A DNA stretch of 64,000 bases from Luteitalea sp. TBR-22. Its GTDB lineage: Bacteria; Acidobacteriota; Vicinamibacteria; Vicinamibacterales; Vicinamibacteraceae. The position numbers and the translations under genes were made by a program. The stretch covers positions 5,974,501 to 6,038,500 of the forward strand of contig NZ_AP024452.1 of the NCBI RefSeq assembly GCF_016865485.1, in the 5' to 3' direction. The notes beneath the pieces are model-generated. The model had not been told where the DNA came from. It searched no databases and was given only the letters and a program-made list of their open reading frames with translations. Position 1 is the first letter of the stretch. Every line of letters begins with the position of its first letter. This document shows, piece by piece, positions 9,146-61,715 of this stretch.

Positions 9146-10585
9146 CTAGCGCAGGCGCAGGAAGCGCTTCATGCGCGCGACGAGCGAGGCAGGCGCCTCC
9201 ACCGCGGCGCCGCGGCGCGTGGCGTGATCGGCCGACAGCACCTGCAGTTCGGCGCGCCGACGGGAGACGGCCTCGGCGAGGGTCTCGAGCACGCCCGGGG
9301 TGCCTTCCGCCAGCGCGCGCAGGGTCGTGTCGTCGAGTTCGAACACCAGCGTGTCCGTGGTCGCCGTGACGGTGGCCGAGCGCGGTTCCCCGGTCAGCCA
9401 CGACATCTCGCCGAACACCTCGCCGACGCCGAGCCGCGCGACCTCCTGGTCATCGGGCGCGAGGCTGACCCGCACCACGCCCCGCGCCACCAGGAAGCTC
9501 GTGCGACCGGTCTCGCCCTGGCGGACGATCGTCTCGCCGCTTCCATAGAGCCGCGGACGCGCCGAGGCTGCCAGCGTGGCCCGCGCGTCGGCGCTGAGGC
9601 CGCCGAGCAGGACGCTTCCGCCAATCAGCGCCGGCAGGTCCGCCTGTTCCGGGAAGCTGACGACCGGCATCGCGCCGGGCGAGTACTCCACCTGGATCGG
9701 GTACGGGATGTCGAGGCCGTGGCGCTGGAAGGTGTACCAGATCGCGGTGCGCATCTGGTCCTGGGCCAGCGAGGCGCGCTCCATGTCCTGCACGAAGCAC
9801 CGGGCACGATAGGTGATCGCCGAGTTGGCGAAGTCCACCACGAGCACGTCGGGGGCCGGCGAGGACATGGCCAGCGGCACCGCCGCGAGTGCCTCGCCGA
9901 TCACGGCCTTCACCTGGTTGGGCGGCGCCGTGTAGGTGACGCCGACGTCGACGAACACGCGGGTCGGCGGCGCCGGCTCGGAGAAGTTGACGATGGCGCC
10001 GTCGGCGATGCTGCTGTTGGGCAGCGCCACGAGCGTGCTCTCGCGCGTGCGCAGCACCGTGGACCGCCAGGAGATCTGGGTGACCCGGCCCTCGTGATCG
10101 CCGACGCGGATCCAGTCGCCCACCTTGTACGGCTGGTCGGCCTGCAGCGCCAGGCCCGCAATGGCGTTGCCGAGCGTGTCCTGCAGCGCCAGGCCGAGCA
10201 CGACGGCGCCGGCCGCTGCCGTCAGCTGCAGGCGGTCGTTGAAGAAGAGGACGACGACCGTGACGAACAGCGCCACGGTGATGGCGTCCTGCAGGATGGC
10301 CGGCAGGCGCTCGGGCAGCCGATCCTCGCGGAACGGATTCACCGCCAGCAGGACGATCAGGTTGCTGGCCGCCAGCACCAGCAGCACGGGCTCGATCGTC
10401 GCCAGCGTGCGGCCGATGCCCGGCGGCGTGCCCGGCCACAGGGCGAGCAGGTGCGCCACGAGGTAGCCGGCGGCGAGCGCCACCGACAGCACCAGCTTGC
10501 GCTGCACGTAGGTGTTGCGGGTGCCGGCCCGCGCCGCGAGGGCGAGGACCAGCACCAGCACACCGACGATGAGTTGCACGGACAC
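9146..10585 (-). CDS. MscS-family mechanosensitive channel with C-terminal cyclic-nucleotide-binding domain
   Basis: A 479-aa inner-membrane channel. Four hydrophobic helices occupy roughly residues 3-20, 30-50, 65-85 and 105-125. The pore helix and beta domain follow (GLALQDTLGNAIAGLALQ, then KVGDWIRVGDHEGRVTQISW, residues about 130-175). Residues about 345-455 form a cNMP-binding fold with the phosphate-binding cassette GEMSWLTGEPRSATV. The architecture matches bacterial cyclic-nucleotide-gated MscS-like channels. The GTG start is followed immediately by the first helix. An adenylate/guanylate cyclase lies upstream on the same strand, so the ligand could be made by a neighbour (inference). 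Confidence 0.9.
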   Translation of the reverse strand: MSVQLIVGVLVLVLALAARAGTRNTYVQRKLVLSVALAAGYLVAHLLALWPGTPPGIGRTLATIEPVLLVLAASNLIVLLAVNPFREDRLPERLPAILQDAITVALFVTVVVLFFNDRLQLTAAAGAVVLGLALQDTLGNAIAGLALQADQPYKVGDWIRVGDHEGRVTQISWRSTVLRTRESTLVALPNSSIADGAIVNFSEPAPPTRVFVDVGVTYTAPPNQVKAVIGEALAAVPLAMSSPAPDVLVVDFANSAITYRARCFVQDMERASLAQDQMRTAIWYTFQRHGLDIPYPIQVEYSPGAMPVVSFPEQADLPALIGGSVLLGGLSADARATLAASARPRLYGSGETIVRQGETGRTSFLVARGVVRVSLAPDDQEVARLGVGEVFGEMSWLTGEPRSATVTATTDTLVFELDDTTLRALAEGTPGVLETLAEAVSRRRAELQVLSADHATRRGAAVEAPASLVARMKRFLRLR

Positions 10586-10590
10586 GATCA

Positions 10591-10664
10591 GGCGGCCTTC
10601 GTCATTGGGCCTTCGGCCTTCGGAAAGGGCTCAGGACTCAGGGCGCAGGGCTCAGAAAGCATGC
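10591..10664. repeat. GGCCTTC element followed by GGCTCAG array
   Basis: 10591-10623 is a 33-base element with heptamer phasing GGCCTTC, GTCATTG, GGCCTTC, GGCCTTC. Almost the same 33 bases recur at 17398-17430 (inverted) and 61551-61583. It runs into a degenerate GGCTCAG array (10627-10656) that ends with the conserved edge AGAAAGCATGCTG. The segment lies in front of the MscS gene start. Confidence 0.75.
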
Positions 10665-10719: not shown

Positions 10720-10772
10720 CGTCAAACGTCAACGTCAAACGTCAAACGTCAAACGTTAAACGTTAAACGTTA
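10720..10772. repeat. AACGTCA/AACGTTA heptamer array ending in a stop codon
   Basis: About seven copies of AAACGTC or AAACGTT in tandem. On the minus strand the M48 protease gene ends with TAA, and that TAA is the first three bases of the array unit (TAACGTT, TAACGTT, TGACGTT and so on). The repeat therefore starts exactly at the stop codon. One copy is shortened to six bases. Confidence 0.85.
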
Positions 10773-11891
10773 CGTCAGCTGCCCCGCCTTCTTGAACGCC
10801 TGGACGTCGGCCGGGGTCACCTTGACCGCCACGACCGCCGGGTTGCCGCCGCCCTTGGCGTCCTTCTCGGGGTCGAGTCCTCGGGCGCCTCCCGAGCCGA
10901 CGACCTGCGCCGACTTGGTCTCGCTGCCGCCCCCGCCGGTCAGCTTGGACAGGCCGAAGCCCTTCTTCTTGGGTGCCTCTTCCTTCGCCGGGGCGGGCTC
11001 GGCGCTCTTGCTGCCGCCCGAGCCACCCGCCAGGCCTTTGGTGCCGGCGGCCACCGTGGCGATCTGCGACTGCGGCACCGGCTTGTAGGAGATGCTCGAC
11101 TTGTAGCGCGCCTCCACCAGTTGCGTGCCGGCCAGCTTCTCCTTGGTGATCGTCGCGGTGAGCTTGTCCTGCCGCGCCTGCATCTCGGGGTGCGAGCTGA
11201 AGAGGCCACGCTTCTCGGTGGCGCTCTTGTTGCGCTCGGCCAGCGTGCCGAGGAAGCTGCCGAGCCCCTGCGGCGCGTAGCCGGCCTTGCTGATCAGCGC
11301 GATGCCCAGCGTGTCGGCGCTGCCCTCGTCGCCCCGGCTGTAGGCGTTGTCGAGGATGTTGTTGTACGCCGCGTTGGCGAGGAACTCGATCAGGGCGTTG
11401 CCGCCGGACACCTCCTCGGCGGCCGCGCTCTTGAGCGTGTTCTTCTTCAGGGTGTCGATCGTGTGCTCCTCGGTGACATGCACGATCTCGTGCGAGAGCA
11501 CGCCGGCCAGTTCCGCCTCGTTCTTCATCAGCGCGAGGGCGCCCCGGGTGATGTGGACGTAGCCGTGCGGCGCCGCGAACGCGTTGACCGCGTCGGTGTC
11601 GAGGACGATGAAGGTCCAGGGCAGGCCCGGCTTCGCGGTCTTCTCGGTGATGGTGCGCCCGACCAGCGTCACGTACTTGTGGACCGCCGGGTCCTGCACG
11701 ACCCCGTAGCGCTGCCGTACGAGCTCGCTCACCCGGGCGCCGAGCGCTGCCTTCTCCTCGTCGGTCCAGCGGAAGTCGTTGATCTGCTTGGCGCGCTTGG
11801 CGCCTTGCTCCAGCAGGCCGAACTGCGCCGCCGCCGGGCTGGCCAGCCCGAGGGTCACCAGGGCGCACAGGAAGAGGGAGGGAACCTTCAC
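10770..11891 (-). CDS. Exported M48-family metalloprotease
   Basis: A 373-aa zinc peptidase related to the M48B/BepA group. Signal peptide VKVPSLFLCALVTLGLASPA lies at residues 1-22. The core carries NAFAAPHGYVHITRGAL and the zinc motif HEIVH in LSHEIVHVTEEHT, with a downstream DEGSADTLGI glutamate that fits the third ligand. The C-terminal 100 residues are Gly/Ser/Lys-rich and probably disordered. Family members degrade misassembled outer-membrane proteins in the periplasm. The GTG start overlaps the cyclase stop as GTGA, so translation is probably coupled. The stop TAA begins a heptamer array. Confidence 0.85.
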   Translation of the reverse strand: MKVPSLFLCALVTLGLASPAAAQFGLLEQGAKRAKQINDFRWTDEEKAALGARVSELVRQRYGVVQDPAVHKYVTLVGRTITEKTAKPGLPWTFIVLDTDAVNAFAAPHGYVHITRGALALMKNEAELAGVLSHEIVHVTEEHTIDTLKKNTLKSAAAEEVSGGNALIEFLANAAYNNILDNAYSRGDEGSADTLGIALISKAGYAPQGLGSFLGTLAERNKSATEKRGLFSSHPEMQARQDKLTATITKEKLAGTQLVEARYKSSISYKPVPQSQIATVAAGTKGLAGGSGGSKSAEPAPAKEEAPKKKGFGLSKLTGGGGSETKSAQVVGSGGARGLDPEKDAKGGGNPAVVAVKVTPADVQAFKKAGQLT

Positions 11892-16858: not shown

Positions 16859-17272
16859 GTGACCGTCTCCGACCTCCCCGCGCTCAACGCCAGCCTCAAC
16901 CTGCTGGCCACGCTGTTCCTGGCGGCCGGGTACGTGTTCGTGCGCCAGCGGCGCATCGGGCCGCACCGGCTGTGCATGCTCGGCGCGCTGGCCTCGTCGG
17001 CCGCGTTCCTCACCAGCTACGTGATCTACCACTACCACGCCGGCTCCAGGCCCTTCGGCGGGACGGGCCTGCTGCGCGTGGTGTACTTCGTCATCCTGAT
17101 CTCGCACGTGATCCTCGCCACGGCCATCGTGCCGATGGTGCTGATGACGGTGTCGCGAGCGCTGTCGGGCCGCTTCGACCCGCATCGCCGTATCGCCCGC
17201 GTCACGTGGCCGCTCTGGATGTACGTGTCGGTGACCGGTGTGATCGTGTACCTGATGCTGTATCGGATGTAG
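16859..17272 (+). CDS. DUF420 membrane protein (CtaM-like oxidase assembly factor)
   Basis: A 137-aa membrane protein with four helices (residues about 8-25, 38-58, 72-98 and 118-136). The conserved histidines of DUF420 are visible in GPHRLCMLG, YVIYHYHAG and LISHVILA, and RRIARVTWPLWMYVSVTGV is the C-terminal signature. Bacillus CtaM/YozB of this family is needed for activity of heme-A oxidases. Its position after ctaB supports that role. The GTG start directly follows an inverted heptamer array, and the stop codon is followed by a GGGATCG array. Confidence 0.85.
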   Translation: MTVSDLPALNASLNLLATLFLAAGYVFVRQRRIGPHRLCMLGALASSAAFLTSYVIYHYHAGSRPFGGTGLLRVVYFVILISHVILATAIVPMVLMTVSRALSGRFDPHRRIARVTWPLWMYVSVTGVIVYLMLYRM

Positions 17273-17312
17273 TCGGGGATCGGGGATCGGGGATCGCGGA
17301 TCGGGCACCGGA
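17273..17312. repeat. GGGATCG heptamer array
   Basis: After the stop codon (TAGTCGG) come GGATCGG, GGATCGG, GGATCGC, GGATCGG and a GGGCACC unit. The first heptamer contains the TAG stop and matches the repeat at its last four positions. Confidence 0.75.
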
Positions 17313-17397: not shown

Positions 17398-17430
17398 CCG
17401 AAGGCCGACGGCCGAATGACGAAGGCCGCC
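17398..17430. repeat. Inverted copy of the 33-base GGCCTTC element
   Basis: The reverse complement differs by one or two bases from the elements at 10591-10623 and 61551-61583, including the interrupting GTCATTC heptamer. It lies just upstream of the SDR gene start. Confidence 0.75.
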
Positions 17431-17444
17431 TGCGAGGACCCTTC

Positions 17445-18185
17445 ATGCAACTGCTTCATCGTGTCGCGTTGATCACCGGCGGCAAGCGCATCGGCCAGGT
17501 CGTGGCCGAGGAACTCGCCCGCGCCGGCGCCGACGTGGTGCTGTCGTATCGCTCCTCGCGGCAGGAAGCGGAGGACACGGCCGCGCGCGTCCAGGCGCTC
17601 GGTCGACAGGCGCTGGTGCTGCAGGCGGACGTGAGTCGTCCCGAGGACTGCGCACGGCTGGCGCGCGACGTCGATGCGCGCCTCAGCAGCCTCGACATCG
17701 TCGTGAACATGGCGTCGACGTACGTGTCGCGCCCGCTCGAGGCGATCGACGCCGCGGCATGGCGCGCCGACATCGACGCCAACCTGTCGTCGGCCTTCCA
17801 CGTGACGCACGCGATGCTGCCACTGCTGCGGCGACGCACGCCGGCGCACGTGGTGAACTTCACCGACTGGTTACCGGCCAGCGGCCGGGCCGGCTACACG
17901 GGGTTCGTCGCGTACTACGTCGCGAAGGCCGGCGTGAAGGCGCTGACCGAGGCGCTGGCGCTCGAGCTCGCCTCCGAGCGCATCCTCGTGAACGCCATCG
18001 CGCCTGGCCCCATCGTCCCGCCGCCGGACCTGAGCGAGGAAGAGAAACGCGAGGTCGCCGAGGCCACGCCGCTGCAGCGCTGGGGCGGCGAGCTCGAGAT
18101 CGCGCGCGCCGTGATGCTGCTCGTGACCACGCAGTTCATCACCGGCGAGACGATTCGCGTCGACGGCGGACGGCACGTGAAGTAG
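17445..18185 (+). CDS. SDR-family oxidoreductase (FolM/pteridine reductase-like)
   Basis: A 246-aa NAD(P)-dependent short-chain dehydrogenase. The Rossmann loop ALITGGKRIGQVVAEELARAG lacks the usual third Gly and resembles FolM/PTR1 pteridine reductases. VNMAS stands for the NNAG motif and YYVAKAGVKALTEALALEL carries the catalytic Tyr-x3-Lys. IAPGPIVPPP and the ITGETIRVDGGRHVK C-terminus are typical. The ATG at 17445 places the glycine loop at residue 10; an upstream ATG would translate a repeat element. Pteridine or quinonoid substrates are possible but not established. Confidence 0.88.
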   Translation: MQLLHRVALITGGKRIGQVVAEELARAGADVVLSYRSSRQEAEDTAARVQALGRQALVLQADVSRPEDCARLARDVDARLSSLDIVVNMASTYVSRPLEAIDAAAWRADIDANLSSAFHVTHAMLPLLRRRTPAHVVNFTDWLPASGRAGYTGFVAYYVAKAGVKALTEALALELASERILVNAIAPGPIVPPPDLSEEEKREVAEATPLQRWGGELEIARAVMLLVTTQFITGETIRVDGGRHVK

Positions 18186-34754: not shown

Positions 34755-34856
34755 GTCCGGCCACGAACGACAGGGGCAGGGCGCAGCGCGAGCGACAGGG
34801 GTAGGGCGCAGCGCGAGCGACACAGGGGTAGGGCGCGGCCTCCGACCGCGCCGTTG
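34751..34856 (+). repeat. Direct tandem of GTAG-headed repeat units
   Basis: GTAG at 34751 (overlapping the mqnD stop), a GCAG variant at about 34776, and GTAG at 34801 and 34828. The two middle units share GGGCGCAGCGCGAGCGACA. The last has a clean stem GGCGCGG/CCGCGCC with loop CCTCCGA. Unlike the other loci, these units run in the same direction. Confidence 0.7.
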
Positions 34857-43663: not shown

Positions 43664-43783
43664 TTGAGCCCTGAGTCTTGAGCCTCGAGCCGCTTCCATG
43701 GTCGGCCTTCTGAGCCTTGAGCCCTGAGCCTTGAGCCGTTCTATGGTCCGCCTTCTGAGCCTTGAGCCCTGAGTCCTGAGCCC
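43664..43783. repeat. Nested TGAGCCY heptamers in 46-base direct repeats
   Basis: Two 46-base copies (from 43687 and 43733), each made of TGAGCCY heptamers plus the non-repeat block CTTCYATGGTCSGCC. The downstream copy forms the 3' end of the RNA methyltransferase gene. A single base change (CTA against CCA) in that copy creates the gene's stop codon. Confidence 0.75.
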
Positions 43784-56697: not shown

Positions 56698-58545
56698 ATG
56701 TCCCGCTACGTCCCGCACGTCCTGCTGGCCTCGGTCGTCCTGTCGCTCTGCTCGCTGACGCTGCTGGCGCAGCCGGCCACCGCGCCCGCGCCGCCGGCCC
56801 CGAGCGCGAAGGACACGCACCAGAAAGCGGAGCACCTCATCCCGATGCGCGACGGCGTGCGGCTGCACACCGCCGTGTATACGCCTAAGACGTGCCCGCC
56901 CGGTGGCGCGCCGATCCTGCTGCAGCGTACGCCGTACAGCGCGAGCCCCTATGGTCCCGACACGTACCCGCCCGTCGTCGGTCCGACGCGCGAGTACGCC
57001 GCCGAGCCATGGATCGTCGCCTACCAGGACGTGCGCGGTCGCTATCTCTCGGAGGGCGAGTGGGAGGAGGTGCGGCCGTACGTCCCGAACAAGACCGGCA
57101 AGCAGGTCGACGAGTCCTCCGACACCTGGGACACGATCGACTGGCTGGTCAAGCAGGTGCCCTGCAACAACGGCAAGGTCGGGATGTGGGGCATCTCGTA
57201 CCCGGGGTTCTACGCGCTGGCCGCGCTCATCGACGCGCATCCGGCGCTGAAGGCCGTGTCGCCGCAGGCACCCGTCACCGACTACTACCTCGGCGACGAC
57301 TCGTTCCACAACGGCGCCTTCATGCTGGCGCACAACTTCTCGTTCTACGTCGATTTCCCGCCACGCGGCCCACAGCCGCGTCGTCCGGCCCGCGACGCCC
57401 CCTTCGACTACGGCACGCGCGACGGCTACCGCTTCTACCTGCAGGCCGGCTCGCTGATGGAGATGAGCCGGAAGTACGGACTCGACAGGAACCCGTACTG
57501 GATGCAGAACCACGAGCACACGACGTACGACGCGTTCTGGAAGGCGCGATCCATCTGGCGGCATTTCCGCAACGTGACGCCGGAGGTGCTGGTGGTGGGC
57601 GGTTGGTACGACGCCGAGGACCTGAGCGGCGCGCTGCGGACGTTCCGTGCGCTGCGCGAGCAGAGCCCGCAGACGCGGTCGTCGCTGGTGATGGGCCCGT
57701 GGACGCACGGCGGATGGGCGCGCAGCGACGGCACCCGCACCGGGCAGATGGAGTTCGGACAGCCGACCGGCGTGCACTATCGCAAGGAGATCGAGCACCG
57801 GTTCTTCACGCGGGCGTTGCGCGACGGCGGCGCGCCGGCCGTGCCGGGCGTGTCGGTCTTCGAGACCGGCGCCAACCGCTGGCGCACGTCGGACTCGTGG
57901 CCGCCCGCCACCACACGCCAGGCCTACTACCTGGGCGAGGGCAGGACCCTCGTGACCACGGTCCCGTCGTCAGCGGAAGGCGCCGACGAGTACGTCAGCG
58001 ACCCGGCCAACCCCGTGCCGCTCGTGGGCGAGCCGGCCATCGGCATGCCGCGCGACTACATGGCGTCGGACCAGGCGTTCGCCGCCGGGCGTCCGGACGT
58101 GCTCGTCTACCGGAGCGCGGTGCTCACCGAAGACGTGACGGTCCTCGGCCCGATCGGCGTCGACCTGCGGGTGTCGACGACCGGCACGGATTCGGACTTC
58201 GTGGTGAAGGTGCTCGACGAGCCCGGGGAGGGACAGCCCGGCGCCGGCAAGCAGATCCTGGTGCGCGGCGAGCCGTTCCGCGGCAAGTTCCGGAAGTCGT
58301 TCGAGGCGCCCGAGCCCTTCGTGCCCGGGCAGCCCGATCGCATCCGCTTCGACCTGCCCGACGTGGCCCACACCTTCCTGAAGGGCCATCGCATCGTCGT
58401 GCACGTGCAGAGCTCGTGGTTCCCGCTCGTGGATCGCAATCCCCAGACCTTCACCGACATCCCGAACGCGAAGCCCGAGCAGTTCGTGAAGGCCACGCAG
58501 CGCGTCTACCGCGGCTCACACGTGATCCTGCCCGTGAGCCGGTAA
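56698..58545 (+). CDS. CocE/NonD (S15) family exported hydrolase
   Basis: A 615-aa X-Pro dipeptidyl-peptidase-like esterase. Signal peptide at residues 1-24 (VLSLCSLTLLAQ). Conserved blocks are PMRDGVRLHTAVYTP, QDVRGRYLSEGEW, the nucleophile elbow GMWGISYPGFYALAA, GGWYDAEDLSGAL (Asp) and MGPWTHGGWARSDG (His). The C-terminal beta-sandwich is visible in LTEDVTVLGPIGVDLRVS onwards. Members hydrolyse acyl-peptides, esters or cocaine-like molecules. The stop codon TAA is the first triplet of an AATTCGA repeat. Confidence 0.92.
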   Translation: MSRYVPHVLLASVVLSLCSLTLLAQPATAPAPPAPSAKDTHQKAEHLIPMRDGVRLHTAVYTPKTCPPGGAPILLQRTPYSASPYGPDTYPPVVGPTREYAAEPWIVAYQDVRGRYLSEGEWEEVRPYVPNKTGKQVDESSDTWDTIDWLVKQVPCNNGKVGMWGISYPGFYALAALIDAHPALKAVSPQAPVTDYYLGDDSFHNGAFMLAHNFSFYVDFPPRGPQPRRPARDAPFDYGTRDGYRFYLQAGSLMEMSRKYGLDRNPYWMQNHEHTTYDAFWKARSIWRHFRNVTPEVLVVGGWYDAEDLSGALRTFRALREQSPQTRSSLVMGPWTHGGWARSDGTRTGQMEFGQPTGVHYRKEIEHRFFTRALRDGGAPAVPGVSVFETGANRWRTSDSWPPATTRQAYYLGEGRTLVTTVPSSAEGADEYVSDPANPVPLVGEPAIGMPRDYMASDQAFAAGRPDVLVYRSAVLTEDVTVLGPIGVDLRVSTTGTDSDFVVKVLDEPGEGQPGAGKQILVRGEPFRGKFRKSFEAPEPFVPGQPDRIRFDLPDVAHTFLKGHRIVVHVQSSWFPLVDRNPQTFTDIPNAKPEQFVKATQRVYRGSHVILPVSR

Positions 58546-58679
58546 TTCGAAATTGGAAATTCGAAATTCAGGGCGGCTCGGCCTCGCGTCGACCTGAAGG
58601 TCGACGCCTACGACGTGAGGGACGTAGGTGCCGACCTTCAGGTCGGCACGCGCCCGCGAGCATTTCCAACTTCGAATTA
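58543..58679. repeat. Nested inverted repeat between two convergent stop codons
   Basis: Outer arms: GTAATTCGAAATTGG at the CocE stop and its inverted counterpart CCAACTTCGAATTAC at the M20 gene stop; each includes the gene's TAA. The left arm contains AATTCGA-type heptamers. Inside is a facing REP-like pair: stem GTCGACCT/AGGTCGAC ending in CTAC (58608-58611), and GTAG (58624) with stem GCCGACCT/AGGTCGGC. Confidence 0.85.
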
Positions 58680-61116: not shown

Positions 61117-61542
61117 ATGACCGAACGACTCCGGACGCAGGACGACGTGCCTGTGGGCCGGTTGCGAGGCTTCCGACCGCGCGTACGGTCGATCGACTCG
61201 CACGCCGATCCCTCGTCGCCGCTCAACCTCGACAAGTTGATCCACGAGCGGCTCCGCCTGGCCATCGTGAGTTCGCTGGCCGTGCAGGACAAGCTGTCGT
61301 TCAACGACCTCAAGTCGCTGCTGCGCACGACCGACGGCAACCTGAGCGTCCATGCGCGCAAGCTGGAGGACGCGGGGTACATCAGCTGCACCAAGACGTT
61401 CGAGGGACGCCTGCCGCGCAGCGAGTACTCGCTGACCCGTGCCGGGCGTGTCGCCCTCGAGCGCTACCTGGGGCACATGGAAGCGCTGATCACCGCCACC
61501 CGCACCGGCAGCCCGAAGCCCGAGGAGCCGAAGCTGCCGTAG
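61117..61542 (+). CDS. Winged-helix DNA-binding regulator
   Basis: A 141-aa protein. After a 40-residue N-terminal extension, residues about 43-115 form a MarR/PadR-like winged helix: IHERLRLAIVSSLAVQDKLS, FNDLKSLLRTTDGNLSVHAR (recognition helix), GYISCTKTFEGRLPRSEYSL (wing). A dimerisation helix follows. It is divergent from the rhodanese gene, which it may regulate (inference). The stop is followed by the GGCCTTC element. Confidence 0.87.
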   Translation: MTERLRTQDDVPVGRLRGFRPRVRSIDSHADPSSPLNLDKLIHERLRLAIVSSLAVQDKLSFNDLKSLLRTTDGNLSVHARKLEDAGYISCTKTFEGRLPRSEYSLTRAGRVALERYLGHMEALITATRTGSPKPEEPKLP

Positions 61543-61550
61543 GGGCATGA

Positions 61551-61583
61551 GGCGGCCTTCGTCATTCGGCCTTCGGCCTTCGT
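61551..61583. repeat. 33-base GGCCTTC element
   Basis: Nearly identical to 10591-10623 and to the inverted copy at 17398-17430, including the GTCATTC interruption. Confidence 0.8.
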
Positions 61584-61596
61584 GGTGCCAGCCTGC

Positions 61597-61662
61597 CAGC
61601 CGACCTGAAGGTCGGCTGCTACGCCCCCCTCCCCCCGTAGGCGTCGACCTTCAGGTCGACGC
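61597..61662. repeat. Facing pair of GTAG-headed palindromes
   Basis: The left, inverted unit has stem GCCGACCT/AGGTCGGC ending in CTAC (61619-61622). The right unit starts GTAG at 61637 with GTCGACCT/AGGTCGAC. The centre is C-rich. This is the same pair type as at 58586-58650 with the stem variants swapped. Confidence 0.85.
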
Positions 61663-61715
61663 TCGGTCGGCATTCCCGGCATCGCGGCATCGCAGCATTA
61701 CCAGGGAACAGAGCC

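Follow-up and report, generated by a model that had tools for sequence, protein, structure and literature searches.

Among the seven-base repeats of bacteria, the STRR heptanucleotides are those of cyanobacteria. The excess of heptamers in bacteria has been linked, where it is discussed, to G-quadruplexes or to polymerase geometry. The closest described system is the GGGNATC heptamer of Xanthomonas and Nostoc (Rehm et al. 2015, PMC4692102), which, in the sections of that account drawn on here, is intergenic, prefers four units, forms convergent pairs and follows an edge rule, lying within 50 bp of ORFs in an orientation governed by strand. The same sections link the repeats to G-quadruplexes, give 83% of them as common to two Xanthomonas species, mention three tandem heptanucleotides in Calothrix and cite an observation from 2007 that seven-base repeats are over-represented in bacteria (PMC4692102). 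Heptamer-derived satellites are mentioned for other bacteria (PMC6749651), and the TAACTGA direct repeats of the Beggiatoaceae and others are summarized as short intergenic arrays, many of which lie just upstream of start codons (PMC4679880). REP elements, which are connected with RAYT transposases, are outlined in their source as short dispersed intergenic repeats, often in inverted pairs and mostly downstream of genes, that consist of a GTAG or CGTC tag and a palindrome, with stems of 8-9 bp in the CGTC types (PMC3733652). The literature listings and abstracts consulted contain no description of the repeats reported below in Acidobacteria.

The DNA analysed here, termed the window, is a stretch of 64,000 nucleotides (positions 5,974,501-6,038,500) from the 6,468,984-base (6.47 Mb) chromosome of Luteitalea sp. 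TBR-22, designated G000. It was compared with relatives that include G001, a complete genome of 7,480,314 bases from the same genus, probably Luteitalea pratensis; the samples used have a G+C content of 70.7% (G000) and 67.6% (G001). Genes were called with a codon-usage script, in which stop codons are exact and start positions are estimates.

A dispersed four-heptad element

A sequence-only reading of the window had reported three copies of a 33-base element, and these are indeed present at 10591-10623 (+), 17398-17430 (-) and 61551-61583 (+), with any pair differing at 2 of 33 positions. The 15-mer GGCCTTCGGCCTTCG, at up to one mismatch, has exactly three matches in the window, whereas shuffles average 0.01 and none of 100 reached three. 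The first copy (29-nt core at 10594..10622, +) has G, not C, before its third unit and lies 8 nt from the start codon of the called gene 9146-10585 (-). The second (17399..17427, -) is an exact match to the consensus with GGCCGTC as third unit, 17 nt from the start codon of the called gene 17445-18185 (+), and the third (61554..61582, +), also exact, has GGCCTTC at this position and begins 11 nt past the stop codon of the called gene 61117-61542 (+). All three read away from the gene.

The copies have repetitive neighbours. Copy 1 is adjoined by a GGCTCAG-type array with its characteristic family tail, AAAGCATGCTG (10626..10655, +), and is faced by a GTTTGAC/GTTTAAC array (10720..10770, -) that reads outward from the stop codon of the called gene 10770-11891 (-). 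Copy 2 is faced by a TCGGGGA array (17273..17305, +) directly past the stop codon of the called gene 16859-17272 (+). Beside copy 3 is a pair of GTAG-type REP hairpins in inverted order (61599..61662), a separate known element type, whose motif GTAGGCGTCGACCTTCAGGTCGACG also adjoins a Y1 transposase match in locus L214. An eight-base array, CGGCATCG, follows at 61668-61698 and also lies near the same gene in the G001 gap (locus L117), its presence in both genomes being unlike the heptamer arrays, which mostly differ between species. The window further contains a longer composite array in which GGCTCAG-type units form a higher period of 45 bases (43665-43782), a 25-base tandem repeat of 2.8 copies that falls outside the heptamer class (34764-34836), and a single GAAATTT arm of the four-heptad-armed element described below (58542-58569).

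The core of the element, GGCCTTCGTCATTSGGCC, was searched at up to one mismatch in five genomes (G000-G004) and 55 other relatives, with the reversed pattern as a control. It has 75 matches in G000, 56 in G001 and 24 in G004, which belong to one genus, with none in G002 and G003 and one match each in two of the 55 other genomes; the reversed control has none in G000-G004 and one in a single other genome. Chance origin is rejected by the shuffles and by these controls. At up to three mismatches the counts in G000 are 308 for the core and 35 for its reverse, indicating that loose matches contain noise. A 20-base pattern found eight stretches in one GTDB genome scan, five of them from a single Acidobacteria MAG, and the remaining ones, one each from Nitrospirae, Verrucomicrobia and Sphingomonadaceae records, may be chance.

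The extent of the element was derived from 94 distinct copies in fetched loci, selected by the core at up to two mismatches, of which the 77 with a GTCATTC-like second unit entered an information profile. As the first 18 positions were chosen by the search pattern, only those beyond them inform on the ends. Conservation begins at about -2 (T, 0.66 bits, followed by C, 1.04 bits) and extends to +29, beyond which information falls to about 0.2 bits or less; C occupies position -1 in 92% of the 77 copies and, this C and the T at -2 excepted, the sequence outside is close to background on both sides. The element is therefore sharp-ended, with flanks that are unrelated between copies, and comprises about 31 nt, namely four heptads and TCG; 58 of the 77 copies are within four mismatches of the full 29-nt four-unit consensus. 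The leading GGC of the 33-base sequence proposed earlier lies outside the repeat. Flank-to-flank matches among the element copies in fetched loci do not exceed those in shuffles and so give no sign of target duplication, and of the marks of a MITE the element likewise lacks inverted ends. A search of the window and seven loci holding element types with Rfam 15 at the gathering threshold returned only tRNAs.

The GTCATTC unit had been regarded as a foreign interruption of the GGCCTTC repeat. It differs from GGCCTTC at only 2 of 7 positions and keeps the register, and arrays of TTCGTCA units are present in G002 and G001; it is thus an in-register variant heptad, of which relatives also have separate arrays. 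The unit does vary: it is exactly GTCATTC in 47 of the 94 copies and one change away in 26 of the remaining 47. Free variation, which would have spoken against the earlier reading, is not seen within this set, whose two-mismatch selection narrows the range of variants. The variant classes of the element differ between G000 and G001 (chi2 34.8, 9 df), which fits copying after the species split and could partly reflect the base composition of the two genomes.

Comparison with relatives argues for insertion. The element is missing from the aligned relatives at the site of copy 1 (G001, G004 and G003), copy 2 (G001, G004 and G002) and copy 3 (G001, G004, G003 and G002), as judged by eye and, for G001, also by script. 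These relatives have shorter gaps and no GGCCTTC array there, and the G001 gaps matching copies 2 and 3 contain GATGCCT arrays instead. Insertion of a unit fits the three loci better than conversion of an existing array. The gap at copy 1, between called genes, is 184 bp in G000 versus 17 bp in G001; such growth, often larger than the element, suggests that several events are mixed. Across 224 conserved gene pairs of G000 and G001 the element, counted at up to five mismatches and hence including some plain arrays, occurs in G000 only at 7, in G001 only at 4 and in both at 3. Of these three, one lies about equally far from the same gene in both genomes and may be a shared copy of older date; for a second, the G000 sequence more closely resembles a plain GGCCTTC/GGCCTTG array. 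Heptad arrays in general are found in G000 only at 27 of the pairs, in G001 only at 13 and in both at 8, with the heptamer family common to both in one of the eight. The presence of the element is mostly lineage-specific. Copying of the whole four-heptad unit is strongly supported by the near-identical cores, the silent reversed control, the sharp ends and the unrelated flanks. The view that whole arrays are moved or converted between loci is accordingly upheld for the copying of units, and is not supported for conversion at the window sites.

Period-7 arrays as a population

The element is one family among the many period-7 arrays that populate the intergenic DNA. The sampled 464 kb of G000 and 470 kb of G001 contain 49 and 51 such arrays, respectively, between called genes, whereas no other period in the range 3 to 13 exceeds four and shuffles have none; a further 800 kb of G000 contains 65, against at most four among ten periods tested. 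Multiples of period 7 also appear, as expected. G000 favours GGGAGTC, GGGCACC, GGCTCAG, GGCAGTC, GTTTGAC and GAAATTY, and G001 favours GATGCCT, GAACGCC and GTCTCAG. Within 18 further genomes of the order, sampled at 5 to 40 kb each and hence too thinly for ranking, eight contain period-7 arrays of other units and ten contain none.

Members of this population share a preferred size and a common placement. Chains of three or more near-matching units (two-unit chains being left out) have exactly four units in 95 of 184 cases, a preference also displayed by GAAATTY (23/28) and GTTTGAC (8/16), both without G runs. In the sample used to choose strands, 63 chains versus 15 have the family strand placed with its 5' end nearer a gene, with 8 of 87 chains set aside. 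In a held-out 800 kb of G000, eight heptamer families read outward in 73 cases versus 14 (p 9e-11), with 10 of 97 chains excluded because they were genic or lacked neighbours. At distances of up to 12 nt from a gene edge the outward bias is 33 versus 3 in the strand-choosing sample and 43 versus 4 in the held-out one. Same-family neighbours up to 150 bp apart have the '+-' order, in which the arrays face each other, in 35 of 56 cases, and different families in one gap have it in 13 of 21; the '-+' order occurs in neither set. The G-rich strand was rejected as a general rule of polarity, since it gives 48 versus 15 in G000 but 24 versus 37 in G001, and by this measure there is one '-+' pair in G000 and six in G001. 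Strand in G001 is family-specific (50 versus 15 over six families, with strands chosen on the same sample; GGGAATC 2 versus 3). The repeat unit of several G001 arrays includes the gene's own stop codon (TGATGCC, TAATGCC or TAACGCC).

Some families are components of larger elements. GAAATTY arrays are the arms, each of four GAAATTT heptads, of dispersed elements mostly 124-141 bp long with a GC-rich two-hairpin core (L140:2042-2170, L138:13174-13301, L191:11441-11566 and others). Alignment of 10 copies reveals changes on both sides of 7 of the 40 predicted pairs, and the heptad arms vary little. Neighbouring GAAATTY arrays have the '+-' order in 13 of 14 cases. Among 14 of these elements with a gene on either side, eight lie between convergent genes, compared with 158 of 1002 neighbouring gene pairs overall, and six of the eight are within 10 nt of both stop codons. 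The element has no Rfam match above gathering thresholds and looks like a two-way hairpin terminator. GGCTCAG arrays have a conserved tail (AGAGCATTC-like or AAAGCATNCTG-like) and often an inverted partner. That some heptad arrays are parts of hairpin elements supports a mobile-element origin. The 33-mer itself forms few inverted pairs: one among 24 copies in the G000 sample (up to five mismatches) and one in G001.

Origin of the element

The reading we favour, to which we give a probability of roughly 0.4, is that the element is a four-heptad unit of about 31 nt copied into intergenic DNA near gene edges, by templated copying from a 3' end. Where an intergenic gap contains a break or a stalled end, a 3' end directed away from the gene would be left. 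A short (T)CG match could pair this end with an array at another locus, from which about four units would be copied before rejoining, possibly by the Ku end-joining pathway, and seven-base slippage may afterwards multiply the units and let them diverge. Templated copying would cover the polarity, the facing pairs, the sharp ends, the C at -1 and the absent duplication; as a form of break repair it leaves the four-unit size unexplained. Ku is present in all five genomes, including G002 and G003, which have no core match, and its presence allows end joining and does not discriminate between origins.

The sharp ends and polarity would be fitted equally by a transposase outside the types searched. 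More specifically, a transposase may move the element, the heptad arrays being arms or ends of small MITE- or REPIN-like palindromes and the 33-mer usually a single arm. The inverted arms of the GAAATTY and GGCTCAG families speak for this origin, and Y1-type insertion proceeds without target duplication, so that its absence here would suit such an enzyme. The distribution of candidate genes and the rarity of inverted 33-mer pairs tell against it, and we consider it unlikely. Y1 transposase matches number two in G000, four in G001 and two in G004, with none in G002 or G003. Eight loci of about 2-3 kb each were fetched, and the seven inspected (the eighth, L215, lies beside L212 and was left out) contain neither a heptad array nor the 33-mer; five of the seven have GTAG REP-like hairpins. 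These hairpins are in inverted order at L214, L213 and L209, the last, in G001, having about thirteen that are regularly spaced. Across 1.264 Mb of G000, eight spans are bounded by facing same-family arrays 0.3-6 kb apart, and the genes inside, inspected by eye over their first 90 residues, do not resemble transposases and look like ordinary cellular genes. As agents, Y1 transposase and reverse transcriptase (RVT_1) were both rejected, neither being associated with the element in the loci and genomes covered.

An origin closer to the sequence-only reading, in which arrays arise by seven-base slippage in place and then exchange sequence by ectopic gene conversion, is improbable. Slippage does shape the arrays once formed, as identical units are clustered as neighbours: they are adjacent in 95 of 172 cases versus 69.7 in shuffles (G000) and in 80 of 161 versus 43.6 (G001), values that none of 2000 shuffles reaches. 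Several heptamer families also begin and end in one phase, and exact period-7 runs, free of mismatches, become fewer as length increases, apart from bumps at about three and four units. The earlier statement that the element proves copying and not slippage was, therefore, right about copying and too strong in its wording. A slippage origin is, however, at odds with the relatives that have no GGCCTTC array at the window sites, and with four being the commonest size among chains of three or more near-matching units. Nor is a seed unit at the orthologous edge clearly more frequent than at random edges, the observed mean being reached by 74 and 34 of 500 simulations in comparisons (n = 18 and 9) that have weak power.

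It is still less probable that the element is a regulatory or terminator motif fixed by selection at gene ends, as its position beside stop and start codons and the terminator-like GAAATTY elements between convergent genes might suggest. When the element was mapped at up to five mismatches in 1.264 Mb of G000, the 24 copies included none inside called genes, and the reversed control had no match. The gene behind the 5' end is the nearer one for 20 of the 23 copies with genes on both sides, three breaking the rule, and the element lies behind stop codons in 12 and behind start codons in 11. It is thus sense in about as many cases as antisense, and since the RNA strand differs between the two settings, the near-equal split points to a polarity at the level of DNA and makes an RNA-level role a poor explanation. 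Folding of the window copies, which form short GGCC-type stems only, is not clearly unusual (z -0.77 to -1.90), heptad arrays in G000 are also found at 7 of 31 conserved divergent gene pairs, and there is turnover of sites between species.

An RNA-templated addition of heptamers, reverse-transcribed or telomerase-like, which the fixed strand of most families and the outward 3' polarity would allow, is very improbable, being largely refuted for RVT_1-type enzymes by the lack of any match at E 0.001 in the element-bearing G000, G001 and G004 (the only two matches are in G002), and is further disfavoured by unit variants that are common to neighbours, unlike the repeated copying of one template.

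A broader formulation, that a general and largely sequence-independent process in bacteria inserts four-heptad elements of many heptamers at gene edges, reading outward, needing no adjacent reverse transcriptase or Y1 gene and acting fast enough for congeneric species to differ gap by gap, is possible, though we hold it to be rather doubtful. If such a copying process is real, bacteria have an unnamed route by which intergenic gaps are filled with pieces of about 30 nt.

Comparison with described repeats

The element is consistent with a class of bacterial seven-base repeats that is poorly understood. G000 has several heptamer families in one genome, a feature in which it is like the STRR repeats. 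In comparison with REPs as outlined in PMC3733652, the 33-mer has its CGTC internally and not at the end, forms GGCC stems only and does not lie beside the inspected Y1 loci. The TAACTGA repeats involve a single heptamer, related heptamers being rarely repeated, and the summary of that system mentions no mosaic element (PMC4679880).

The likeness to the GGGNATC repeats, as portrayed in the sections cited, extends to intergenic location, period 7, a preference for four units, a strand rule at gene edges and convergent pairs (PMC4692102). Unlike the portrayal of GGGNATC there, the arrays of Luteitalea comprise many heptamers, some without G runs, include a mosaic element in which one variant unit is fixed, and show strong turnover of sites between species. 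Judged on sequence, GAAATTY and GTTTGAC, which have no G runs, and the 33-mer, which has GG pairs only, fall outside the G-quadruplex pattern. The four-unit preference and outward polarity of families without G runs therefore tell against an explanation by quadruplexes and bring the question within reach of a test. What is new here is that rules known for one G-rich heptamer hold for many heptamers, including those without G runs, and that corresponding gaps in two congeneric species are for the most part occupied by different heptamers.
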